Assembly (NCBI GenBank): GCA_028689055.1
Contig: JAQTWZ010000010.1
Location: 3,231 to 56,835, forward strand
DNA from: Sulfurimonas sp.
GTDB lineage: Bacteria > Campylobacterota > Campylobacteria > Campylobacterales > Sulfurimonadaceae
Length of the DNA stretch: 53,605 nt
Direction of reading: 5' to 3'
Shown: in pieces, positions 36,071 to 40,272 of the stretch
How the letters are laid out: each line of letters opens with the position of its first letter
Numbering within the stretch: the stretch's first letter is position 1
Made by a program: the position numbers and the translations under genes
The notes under the pieces: model-generated
The model's input: the letters and a program-made list of their open reading frames with translations, nothing else
Told to the model about the DNA's origin: nothing
Database searches by the model: none

Positions 36071-37414
36071 ATGAAACTTTATGCACCTTGGGAGAAAGCT
36101 TTTAAAAAAGTAGCCACACCTTTTGAGCACTTTTTACATGCACAGACGACAACAGGTATCGTACTGATGAGTATGACTATCATCGCACTTATCCTTGCGA
36201 ACACACCTCTTGCGCAAGCGTATCTGCATCTTTTTCACACCGATATCACTCTGAGCATCGGCTCATGGAGTATCTCACACTCCATCCATCACTGGATCAA
36301 CGACGGGCTGATGGCGATCTTCTTTTTTATCGTCGGTTTGGAGATCAAACGTGAGATATTAGTAGGCGAACTCTCCAACATCAAAGTCGCTATTTTACCT
36401 ATTCTTGCCGCTTTTGGCGGGATGGTTTTACCGGCACTTATCTATCTGAGTATCAACTACGGCTCAGAGAGTGCCAATGGCTGGGGTATTCCTATGGCTA
36501 CGGATATTGCCTTTGCTATTAGTGCTCTTGTTTTGCTTGGCAAAAGAGTCTCTACTGCACTTGTCACCTTTTTAGTGGCACTTGCTATCGTCGATGACTT
36601 AGGTGCTGTTGTCGTTATCGCTCTTTTTTATACGGAACAGATTCATCTTCTGCCGCTGGCACTTGCGGGAGTTTCATTTTTGGTGCTTGTTGCGTTTAAC
36701 CGTTTTGGTATTCACGCCGTATTGCCTTACTTTATCGTGGGTGTGGTAATGTGGCTTTTTATGCTTGACTCAGGTGTTCATGCGACTATTGCGGGAGTTA
36801 TAGCCGCTATGGCGATTCCCTCAAGACCAAAACGTGCGCCTGTTGGTTTTACAAATCACATGAGCAATATGCTTGATGAGTATGACAGTTATCCCGTGGC
36901 GACCGATCATACGATACACGAAAATCAAAAAGCGATACTGCAAAACATAAAAGACAGAATCGACTCCGTAAATGCACCGGCTTTACGACTTGAACATGAG
37001 CTGCATCTGCCTGTGAGTTTGATAGTTATCCCTCTTTTTGCACTTGCAAACGCAGGCATATCTATAGATTTTTCTTCTATAGGTGAGACTATTGCGACAC
37101 CTGTGTCCCTTGGTGTTATAGCGGGTCTTGTTTTTGGCAAAGTTCTCGGTATCGCAGGTGTCGCATGGCTTGCCATCAAATCCGGTATAGCAAGACTTCC
37201 TGAGGGAAGTACTATGAACCAGATATTTGGTGTTGCGTTTTTAGGCGGGATAGGTTTTACTATGAGTATATTTGTCGCGGATTTGGCATTTGTAGGGAAT
37301 GACGCCTTTATCTTTCAAGCCAAAGTCGGTATCCTCGCAGCTTCACTTTTTGCAGGTCTCTTTGGATTTTTCTGGCTGAGATATATCGCAAAATCCCCAA
37401 GCCAAAATGCTTAG
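36071..37414 (+). CDS. nhaA: Na+/H+ antiporter NhaA
   Basis: A 447-residue membrane protein with GLEIKREILVGELS, ATDIAFAISALVLLGKRVS and LAIVDDLGAVVVIALFYT, where the two adjacent Asp are the ion-binding pair of NhaA. It exports sodium in exchange for protons. It is longer than E. coli NhaA because of a cytoplasmic loop (about residues 258-300). The stop overlaps the end of pyk by 4 bases, tail to tail. Confidence 0.95.
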   Translation: MKLYAPWEKAFKKVATPFEHFLHAQTTTGIVLMSMTIIALILANTPLAQAYLHLFHTDITLSIGSWSISHSIHHWINDGLMAIFFFIVGLEIKREILVGELSNIKVAILPILAAFGGMVLPALIYLSINYGSESANGWGIPMATDIAFAISALVLLGKRVSTALVTFLVALAIVDDLGAVVVIALFYTEQIHLLPLALAGVSFLVLVAFNRFGIHAVLPYFIVGVVMWLFMLDSGVHATIAGVIAAMAIPSRPKRAPVGFTNHMSNMLDEYDSYPVATDHTIHENQKAILQNIKDRIDSVNAPALRLEHELHLPVSLIVIPLFALANAGISIDFSSIGETIATPVSLGVIAGLVFGKVLGIAGVAWLAIKSGIARLPEGSTMNQIFGVAFLGGIGFTMSIFVADLAFVGNDAFIFQAKVGILAASLFAGLFGFFWLRYIAKSPSQNA

Positions 37415-38856
37415 CGGAGGGATTTGAAAAACTCCATTTCACTCTCTCTGAGGATACGAATCATGTTTGTACTTCCAGCCACGCCCGAAGGGTCTCCGGC
37501 TGTGAGTATATAACTCTTATCACGTTTGAGCACCTTTCTCTGCAGTCCTTGTCGCATCACCTCACTCATCATCTGCCCTAGTGAACCTTCGTTGACCACA
37601 AACGCAGGAACAACGCCCCAACAAAGTGTCAGCAATCGTGCTACCTTGAGATTGTGTGCGATTGCATAGATATCTCTACGCGGTCTGTAACGTGAAATCT
37701 TTTTCACGGAAGCACCACTCATCGTCATACATAAAAGTCCCCACGCTTCTACATCTTCACAAAGTTTTACCGCCGCTTCATTGATACTGTCCGTGGCATC
37801 ATGCAGCTCAAAAACAGAACATTTGTTAAAAGGATAGATTTTCTCTGCACCTTGTATCGTCTGTACCATCGTCTCGACCGCCAAAATAGGATTATGCCCT
37901 ACCGCACTCTCTTCTGAGAGCATCACGGCATCTGTTCCATCAAGGACTGCGTTTGCGATATCGCTGATTTCGGCGCGCGTGGCTCTCTCTTTGTCTGTCA
38001 TCGACAAAAGCATTTGTGTCGCCGTTATAACGGGTTTAGAAGCTGCGTTTGCTTTATGTATCAACATCTTTTGCAAAGAAGGCACTTCATAAAAAGGCAC
38101 TTCAATACCCAAATCTCCGCGTGCTACCATAATACCGTCACTCGCCTCAAGAATTGCGTCGATATTTTCTATCGCATCAAATTTCTCTATTTTTGCATAA
38201 AGCTCGACACTGCCGCCGTATTGTGAGATTATCTCACGCGCACGCAACATATCACTCGCTTCTTGGACAAAGGAAATAGCCATAAAGTCCACATCGTTTT
38301 GTACACCCCAGAGCATATCTAGCTTATCTTTTTGGGTGAGGATATCGATGCCAAGACGAGTATTTGGGAAGTTTACCCCTTTTTTGGAACTCAGCAAACC
38401 GCTGTTTTCTACGATAACGCAAACGCCATCTTCTGCACAATCAACGACTTTCGTACGGATAATCCCATCATAAAGATAGACATAATCACCACACTGAAGC
38501 TGCTCCAAAATAGAAGGCTCACTCAAAGAGACGACATAACTCTTCGCATCTTTTTGATACCCGATGATCTCTTTTTTGACAAAAGTAAGCATGTCGTCTT
38601 TTTGCAAAGAAAACGACTCTTCAAGCTTGCCGATGCGTATCTTAGGACCGCTGATATCTTGCAATACACCGACTAAAAGCCCCGTCTCTTTTTCCGCCTG
38701 ACGGATTCTTTGGAGCACCTCACTATGGTATTCATGAGTACCATGTGAAAAGTTCAGACGAAAAGCATTGACCCCTGCGTGAAGCAGTGCAGTAATTTTT
38801 TCAAGTGAATCAGAAGTAGGTCCGAGTGTTGCTAAAATCTTTGTACGTTTTTTCAT
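37411..38856 (-). CDS. pyk: Pyruvate kinase
   Basis: A 481-residue glycolytic enzyme. RTKILATLGPTSDS is the family start; NFSHGTHEYH, MVARGDLGIEVPF and the substrate loop ITATQMLLSM are clear. It converts PEP and ADP to pyruvate and ATP. Four AAACGCAG copies (two each way) lie in the gene. Confidence 0.96.
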   Translation of the reverse strand: MKKRTKILATLGPTSDSLEKITALLHAGVNAFRLNFSHGTHEYHSEVLQRIRQAEKETGLLVGVLQDISGPKIRIGKLEESFSLQKDDMLTFVKKEIIGYQKDAKSYVVSLSEPSILEQLQCGDYVYLYDGIIRTKVVDCAEDGVCVIVENSGLLSSKKGVNFPNTRLGIDILTQKDKLDMLWGVQNDVDFMAISFVQEASDMLRAREIISQYGGSVELYAKIEKFDAIENIDAILEASDGIMVARGDLGIEVPFYEVPSLQKMLIHKANAASKPVITATQMLLSMTDKERATRAEISDIANAVLDGTDAVMLSEESAVGHNPILAVETMVQTIQGAEKIYPFNKCSVFELHDATDSINEAAVKLCEDVEAWGLLCMTMSGASVKKISRYRPRRDIYAIAHNLKVARLLTLCWGVVPAFVVNEGSLGQMMSEVMRQGLQRKVLKRDKSYILTAGDPSGVAGSTNMIRILRESEMEFFKSLR

Positions 38857-39058
38857 ATTTTTCCTAGTATTTAGAGCCTTTTGAAAATCTCCAAATTCAC
38901 CACATAATTTAAGTCATTTGGAAGTTTGAAAAAAAAGCTCATTCAAGCTAGATTTTATTTGCAAGGGGGCTCGATGCTTAATGTTTCAGGTAAAATTTTT
39001 TACTATAAGAAACAACCAAAACACAAGAAACTCTATAAAAAATATTATACCAACACTA

Positions 39059-39159
39059 TCAAAAATGTCCCTTAAAATTCTTAACTTTAAAACAACTCTT
39101 TTTCCTACACTACAAGAAAAGCTGATGTGGATATTGAGAATTTTAAGGGAGATTTTTGA
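39059..39159. repeat. MITE-like element with 23-bp inverted ends
   Basis: The left arm 39059-39081 and the right arm 39137-39159 are inverted copies with one mismatch in 23; the perfect inner part is TCCCTTAAAATTCT. The 55-base core has no coding capacity. This is the build of a small non-autonomous insertion, or of a very long hairpin in the transcript. Confidence 0.65.
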
Positions 39160-39300
39160 AAGAGAGGGGATGAGGGCATCTTCAACCCCTTTATTCGGGA
39201 GAAAACATACTTTTTTTGGAGATGAAATGCATGAAAGATATGTTTTGCCCTTGAGTCTATTTTTAGTTAGGAATTTTTGTTAAACTGACAAACCAGTCAT

Positions 39301-39317
39301 CCTGAACTTGATTCAGG
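39301..39317. repeat. REP-like palindrome
   Basis: CCTGAA-CTTGA-TTCAGG, preceded by GTCAT. Sequences of the type GTCATCCTGAACTTG-TTCAGG recur in the intergenic DNA of many bacteria. Only one copy is seen in this window. Confidence 0.5.
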
Positions 39318-39420
39318 CGCTAGGTTGTGTAAGAAGTCTAATAAAAAATACTAGAGAGAGTAGATTTTGCTTGTGTCCCGTTTTTTGTAAATATTAAGTA
39401 GAAAAAGACTACTATTTCGC

Positions 39421-40272
39421 ATGCAAAACTTTGAAACATTTTTACTTGAAAATTTACCACATTCGGTAAGTATCCATCCAGATTACGAAAAAGCGCTTCA
39501 GGCAATGCTTATTGCAGGTGGAAAACGCTTTCGTCCGGCACTTTTGCTTGGCGTTGTGAATGCCTATAATCCGCTCATGTTGGGTAGTGCGAGACATGCT
39601 GCTTATGCGATAGAACTTTTGCATACCTATTCGCTTATCCATGATGATTTACCTGCGATGGATAACTCACCTCTGCGTCGCGGCAAACCGACATTACATG
39701 TGCTTTATGACGAAGTAACGGCGATTTTGGTTGGGGATGCACTCAATACCTATGCGTTTGAAGTGCTCTCCAAAGCACCGTTTTCTGATGCTACGCGGGT
39801 GGATCTTATCCGTGAGCTTGCAAGCAATGGCGGTTTGAACGGTATGGTTTTAGGGCAGGCAATTGATTGTTATTTTGAAAATAAACCTCTGAGTATTGAT
39901 GAGGTAAAAATCCTCCACACCAACAAAACAGCTAAACTTATCGCCGCTTCTTTGAAAATGGGTGCACTTATAATCGGAGATGAAACACTTGGCGAAAAAT
40001 TGTATGATTTTGGAATCAAACTTGGTCTTTTGTTTCAGATTCAAGATGATATTTTGGATGTGACACAAACCTCAAGTGAAGCGGGCAAACTTACAAATAA
40101 TGATGAAGCCAAAAACAGTTTTGTGACTATTTTGGGGCTTGATGAGGCGATGCGTGAAGCAAATCTTTTGGCAGATGCGCTTCTCCATGAGCTGCATAGT
40201 TTGGACGAGAACTTACAAAGTGAGTTGTCACCTTTGCTAACGCAGTATATAAACAGACACAAAATAAACTAA
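39421..40272 (+). CDS. ispA: Polyprenyl (farnesyl/geranylgeranyl) diphosphate synthase
   Basis: A 283-residue short-chain prenyltransferase with the first Asp-rich motif in LIHDDLPAMDN (DDxxxxD) and the second in FQIQDDILD (DDxxD), plus GGKRFRPALLLG. It builds farnesyl or similar diphosphate from IPP. The start lacks a clear Shine-Dalgarno sequence. Product length cannot be settled here. It lies 12 bases before tkt. Confidence 0.92.
   Translation: MQNFETFLLENLPHSVSIHPDYEKALQAMLIAGGKRFRPALLLGVVNAYNPLMLGSARHAAYAIELLHTYSLIHDDLPAMDNSPLRRGKPTLHVLYDEVTAILVGDALNTYAFEVLSKAPFSDATRVDLIRELASNGGLNGMVLGQAIDCYFENKPLSIDEVKILHTNKTAKLIAASLKMGALIIGDETLGEKLYDFGIKLGLLFQIQDDILDVTQTSSEAGKLTNNDEAKNSFVTILGLDEAMREANLLADALLHELHSLDENLQSELSPLLTQYINRHKIN

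Follow-up and report, generated by a model that had tools for sequence, protein, structure and literature searches.

Anatomy and decay of a 316-bp unit upstream of pyk

The window, i.e. the whole stretch of 53,605 nucleotides that was analysed, is located on contig C6 of a Sulfurimonas genome of 2.3 Mb in 82 contigs. It contains a pyruvate kinase gene (pyk; 37411-38856, minus strand) and, on the other side of an intergenic gap, a polyprenyl synthetase gene (39421-40272, plus strand). The gap harbors a repeated unit of 316 bp (38874-39189, plus strand), which comprises the left end of an insertion sequence (IS), a decayed transposase start and an inverted transposase fragment. A second copy is found on contig C22; the match covers 38872-39193 (98%), and the unit is defined as this match minus a few flanking bases that also match.

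The true left terminus of the unit is GAGCC at 38874, adjoining pyk, whose start codon is 17 nt away; the native upstream region of pyk is therefore displaced by 316 bp or gone. The left terminal inverted repeat of the IS family (38874-38890, plus strand; GAGCC...) was identified by alignment and is partly decayed; full-length copies mostly begin GAGCCACTTGCAGATT. The left part of the unit aligns with IS left ends of relatives, several of which run on into a transposase frame with LSKMWLK near its start. The window copy retains the left end together with ~28 initial transposase codons; the decayed transposase start (39035-39117, plus strand) has lost its start codon, reads NIIPTLSKMSLKILNFKTTLFPTLQEK, and is homologous to the starts in L035, L038 and L089. 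It adjoins a fragment of another, diverged transposase start, which lies in inverse orientation (39116-39189, minus strand). The other end of the unit, at 39189, reads GGGGTTGAAGATG and differs from the right terminal repeat of the family. The unit is flanked by TTTA on the left (38870-38873) and on the right (39190-39193), a possible 4-bp target duplication; there is none at the C22 copy (TAAT vs TATA). As judged from these alignments, it is well supported that the feature represents a decayed IS1182-like left end joined to an inverted transposase fragment.

The initial annotation had described a 101-bp MITE-like element at 39059-39159, with 23-bp inverted ends around non-coding bases. The same figures were obtained on recount: the left arm (39059-39081) and the right arm (39137-39159), when compared, pair at 22 of 23 bases around a 55-base spacer. 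A chance palindrome is ruled out by shuffle controls of both pairing and folding; when the intergenic stretch was dinucleotide-shuffled 30 times, no 23-bp inverted pair (loop <=100) exceeded 17 matching bases, and folding of the 101 bases as single-stranded DNA yielded -19.5 kcal/mol, compared with a shuffle mean of -6.65 (z = -5.98). The enclosed bases are largely decayed transposase codons. The plus strand reads IIPTLSKMSLKILN through the left arm, and the right arm reads LIPSLSKISLKILNIHIS on the minus strand (by-eye translation); the right-arm region (39116-39171) resembles the transposase start of G077 (L052; 77% DNA match, inverse orientation, E = 1.7e-4). Going by these readings, the 23-bp repeat is the most alike codon run of two non-identical transposase starts placed head to head, i.e. 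two homologous coding pieces that face each other and therefore form an inverted repeat. An open frame of 100 codons (38981-39283) spans the whole palindrome; it crosses the decayed transposase codons and is unlikely to be a gene.

The designation as MITE-like thus holds insofar as the element is IS-derived and repeated in the genome, but the 23-bp arms lie internally and do not terminate a mobile element, and the unit that recurs measures 316 bp. This unit is short and without an intact transposase gene, since its start codon is lost and only decayed codons remain. An IS family with a matching left end exists, whereas the end at 39189 lacks the right terminal repeat of this parent. A strong intergenic inverted repeat hence need not be a MITE; conserved codons of two dead copies in facing orientation present the same picture.

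A separate dispersed repeat is located in the same gap at 39290-39348 and includes the palindrome CCTGAACTTGATTCAGG (39301-39317; one occurrence in the window); elsewhere in the genome, parts of this repeat recur at nine places, distributed over seven contigs. An empty site of the window copy, as sought by the initial annotation, was not found: no polyprenyl synthetase match is located near pyk in the pyk loci of the 23 relatives that were read, and the empty site is therefore not comparable. In several of these 23 relatives, pyk comes directly after another reading frame, which these relatives have in common.

The parent insertion sequence and its remnants in the window genome

The parent element is IS1182-like, about 1.5 kb in length with ends GAGCCACTTGCA.., and encodes one DDE transposase. 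A copy of this transposase from a congeneric Sulfurimonas symbiont (L041, on the contig of L083) comprises 387 residues with DUF772 and DDE_Tnp_1 domains (PF01609 present). Copies in other Campylobacterota have GAGCCACTTGCAAATTC as right end and, in most cases, GAGCCACTTGCAGATT as left end, and unbroken copies exist among them: in L085, L088 and L089, unbroken frames of 391, 388 and 384 residues, respectively, for the DDE transposase lie between terminal inverted repeats, with GAGCCACTTGCA(A/G)ATT at both ends. Of 11 copies with both ends readable, six have clean 4-bp flanking duplications when inspected by eye (L085, L088, L091, L095, L097, L113) and five do not (L087, L089, L092, L093, L120).

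The likeness to IS1182 is based on the best NCBIfam model match, although its score of 51.7 bits is far under the cut-off of 270, on the two domains, and on nine plasmid records with coverage of 80% or more of the transposase; eight of these nine are annotated as IS1182 family, at 34.5-35.9% identity. The nearest plasmid match is an Aliarcobacter transposase without family name (74% over 63%). The closest known elements are IS1182 family insertion sequences, such as ISUnCu17-like elements and IS1272; IS1272, in the cited part of the source, makes no target duplications and replaces inverted repeats (PMC5678879); the elements examined here differ by the 4-bp duplications in six of 11 full-length copies. 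No published work on this IS or its remnants was found in literature searches, which is no proof of absence.

Four left ends of this IS type are present in the window genome (contigs C6, C22, C67 and C64). With the 101 bases as query, C22 matches at 99%, C64 with bases 3-53 at 92%, and C67 with bases 1-27 at 100%; with a longer query, the matches are 322 bp at 98% (C22), 214 bp at 100% (C67) and ~240 bp at 79% (C64). The search for copies proposed in the initial annotation thus returns a second one on C22, and the element is not unique. Two copies have both ends in common and two more share only the left part: the C67 copy shares the left 214 bp and then ends elsewhere, and the right arm is absent from the copies on C67 and C64. 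The transposase start codon is lost on C6, C22 and C67 and kept on C64. The initial annotation had reported that a parent transposase is absent from the window, and this is borne out for the entire genome, in which the 387-residue family transposase as query has no match; the same query matches 17 of the 135 genomes of the genus. Similarly, no IS right end was detected in the window genome at E<=0.01 (strict filters) with a query that matches other genomes of the genus.

All four left ends have a predicted gene start directly outside the IS end, with the gene facing outward. The start codons lie at distances of 17 (C6), 34 (C22), 35 (C67) and 23 nt (C64), and the genes are predicted to encode pyruvate kinase, an OmpA family protein, a histidine kinase and a RadA-like ATPase, respectively.

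A 17-base end pattern, searched with three mismatches, was found at 13 places in the window genome (four for the reversed control), two of which are the remnants on C22 and C64. These two and the places on C41, C59 and C14 were inspected and the other eight left out; C41 and C59 were ruled out as IS ends because they are in coding sequence, and C14 was rejected since it has no further likeness by eye and no match to either left-end model.

Orientation of genes beside IS ends across the genus

The search set comprised 135 genomes of the genus, including the window genome, and was searched with two left-end models (R1, long-leader; R2, short-leader) and one right-end model (R3). Flanks were taken for matches at E<=1e-4, and weaker matches were left out on both sides. 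The left count includes every such match whose start lies within model positions 1-10, compiled by reading lists; G091_C146 was dropped (end undefined). Ends were extrapolated where the match begins inside the model (e.g. G005_C3, G095_C58, G011_C1). An end was called broken if less than 200 bp remain before the contig end, such copies being only presumed recent and multi-copy, and complete if at least 300 transposase residues are nearby or if it is one of 13 copies of named genomes outside the search; remnants are neither broken nor complete, and recent ends are broken plus complete. The complete group consists of 13 copies on each side from other genera or bins, placed by name, plus one G107 copy on the right; within it, L096 covers only 265 transposase residues, several copies have broken frames, and for L084 and L096 the search yielded no right end. 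On the right side, G107:C73:49163, which overlaps a left-end match, was left out, and one remnant (G025_C71) is cut by the contig end. G063_C99 is an inward remnant by rule and was initially grouped by hand with the recent copies, as was G091_C146.

For each end, up to 1.5 kb was examined, and the nearest outward open reading frame with 100 or more residues was scored as reading away from or toward the end. Left remnants gave 32 away, five toward and four without such a frame (n=41), and recent left ends 37 away, 27 toward and two unassigned (n=66; broken, 30:23, n=53; complete, 7:4 with none in two, n=13). Right remnants gave 14 away, 10 toward and one without (n=25), and recent right ends 26:20 (n=46; broken, 16:16, n=32; complete, 10:4, n=14). 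Left remnants differ from recent left ends (Fisher, P = 0.0036; 0.018 at 70 residues, 0.0025 at 150) and from right remnants (P = 0.017; 0.047 at 70 residues, 0.0046 at 150), where all P values are nominal because a first table had been seen before the grouping and the orientation rule were fixed, and because copies of the same genome are not independent; right remnants do not differ from recent right ends (P = 1.0).

When counted by genome, left remnants were outward in 15, inward in one and tied in one of 17 genomes (i.e. 14, 0 and 1 of 15 genomes, plus G017 as outward and G011 as inward; signs compiled by hand), and right remnants were outward in six, inward in six and tied in two of 14. 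The left count had been 31:4 before eight further left-end matches joined; omission of the four ends of the window genome and of one of two like-flanked G152 copies from this earlier set left 26:4 (nominal P = 0.008 and 0.028). On the far side of 37 left remnants, beyond 450 bp, genes read 18:19, and a simple preference of the IS for positions upstream of genes therefore does not explain the bias. That left remnants face genes more often than recent copies do suggests that they are kept as promoters.

In G140, G098, G004 and G113, left ends of near-equal score are found at many contig ends (L233-L243, L244-L251, L253-L259, L263-L270); this crowding points to recent multi-copy activity of related IS elements in the genus. 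Several long-leader remnants (L020, L035, L036, L037) break off at similar places, around transposase codons 17-28 as judged by eye.

A putative outward promoter and competing explanations

A putative promoter toward pyk is represented by an extended -10 box, TGGTATAAT (39044-39052, minus strand), antisense to the decayed transposase start; transcription would be expected to start near 39037. For C. jejuni, the cited part of one study gives TGxTATAAT as the sigma-70 extended -10 and describes promoters with mostly a periodic A/T-rich pattern instead of a clear -35 box (PMC3656092). The box fits this consensus exactly. A promoter scan of the gap predicted five sites, box included, compared with 2.0 expected, and promoter-like sites are cheap here; the scan predicted no terminator-like site.

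The box was surveyed in 33 left ends (one broken end and 32 remnants from a set of 39, of which the seven with short homology were left out), of which three could not be aligned; TGnTA[T/C]AAT is kept in 20 of the 30 aligned and missing in 10. The box is formed by two codons, both of which have A at the wobble position in all 16 transposase starts compared, with varying residues; this count was taken by eye, since the codon alignment misplaces a four-residue insert, and the starts are not independent. In that alignment, the wobble base is invariant in four of 98 columns with at least three residues, one of which is the misaligned column itself. Among the remnants, the box window is conserved at 85%, hardly better than the neighboring SKMW codons (84%). 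Some outward remnants retain only 75-113 bp of the IS (G019_C59, G094_C22, G019_C39), and the deep antisense box therefore cannot be the promoter in all; a second promoter may be located nearer the IS end.

We consider it fairly probable that the dead IS1182-like left end upstream of pyk has been kept as an outward promoter; promoter function of the retained left end, as deduced from sequence, is likely. An IS1182-like element came to lie just upstream of pyk; of this element, only the left end with ~28 initial transposase codons remains, fused to an inverted piece of the transposase start of another copy, and the alignments show that these two homologous pieces make up the 23-bp inverted repeat. 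The left end would drive outward transcription and supply pyk, from the antisense box in the first transposase codons or from a second promoter nearer the end, and the remnant would probably be kept for that. More tentative, and somewhat doubtful as yet, is the wider proposal of a Campylobacterota IS1182-like family whose left end would contain an outward promoter, encoded in part antisense to the first codons of the transposase; dying copies would survive mainly when their left end points at a gene.

It is somewhat unlikely that the feature is a functionless IS remnant in neutral decay, with the orientation bias due to sampling, or produced artificially by copies broken at contig ends and by crude gene prediction. 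Such a view could draw on the small numbers (37 assigned left remnants, 17 genomes), on the post hoc groups, and on P values that are weaker at one of the thresholds; however, right remnants and recent ends under identical treatment have no clear bias, 15 of the 17 genomes agree, and the left ends in the window genome lie within 17-35 nt of start codons. A non-autonomous mobile unit (a MITE in the wide sense), i.e. a 316-bp unit moved by a related transposase with a 4-bp duplication and with no host function, is unlikely. It would account for the occurrence, at unrelated sites, of two 98% copies that agree in both ends, and for the TTTA flanks in the window, whose length is that of the duplications in six of 11 full-length copies (by eye), but the terminal repeat of the family is not what the right end shows (GGGGTTGAAGATG), the C22 copy has no matching duplication, the C67 copy diverges after its left 214 bp (100%), the window genome has no transposase match, and the orientation bias would be left unexplained.

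A role of the hairpin as RNA, i.e. as an attenuator, terminator or small RNA, possibly antisense to the transposase as in IS10, is very improbable. The strong fold, the antisense promoter-like box at the transposase start and a T-run downstream are in line with such an RNA; opposed to it are the lack of a terminator-like site and of the right arm on C67 and C64, and the absence of a transposase match in the genome that could be regulated. Moreover, no Rfam family scored above its gathering score, the sub-threshold matches being mostly microRNA hairpin models, and of 12 pairs in the left-end alignment none is changed on both sides, i.e. there are no compensatory pairs.

Synteny among epsilonproteobacterial genomes is very low, and genes that have been reshuffled need rewiring for their transcription, as stated in the cited part of one analysis (PMC3847290). 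If the outward-promoter reading is true, the left end would be a standing promoter for relocated genes and a concrete source of new promoters where gene order is heavily reshuffled; pyk would be an example, as its neighbors in the window differ from those in relatives. The origin of new promoters is seldom visible, and dead IS ends retained mainly in outward orientation would be a visible and countable source.

In IS10, the outward promoter pOUT, with its RNA-OUT, is antisense to the transposase start. IS10 belongs to a different IS family, and the resemblance concerns the way of working only, with the box here putative from its sequence. Bacterial MITEs that carry outward promoters, Correia elements among them, are, in the cited part of the source, short, often immediately upstream of genes, and equipped with sigma-70-like promoters (PMC10969869). 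The remnant resembles them in shortness, in its position before a gene, and in the (putative) sigma-70-like promoter; it differs as a one-ended remnant without matching right terminal repeat and with the putative box inside decayed transposase codons. In Amoebophilus, some genes start too near an upstream IS for a promoter of their own and may depend on IS promoters (PMC3196728, as described in the part cited). The likeness is the gene start close to an upstream IS; that case concerns whole or partial IS in one genome, whereas here a preferential survival of one dead end is proposed genus-wide.
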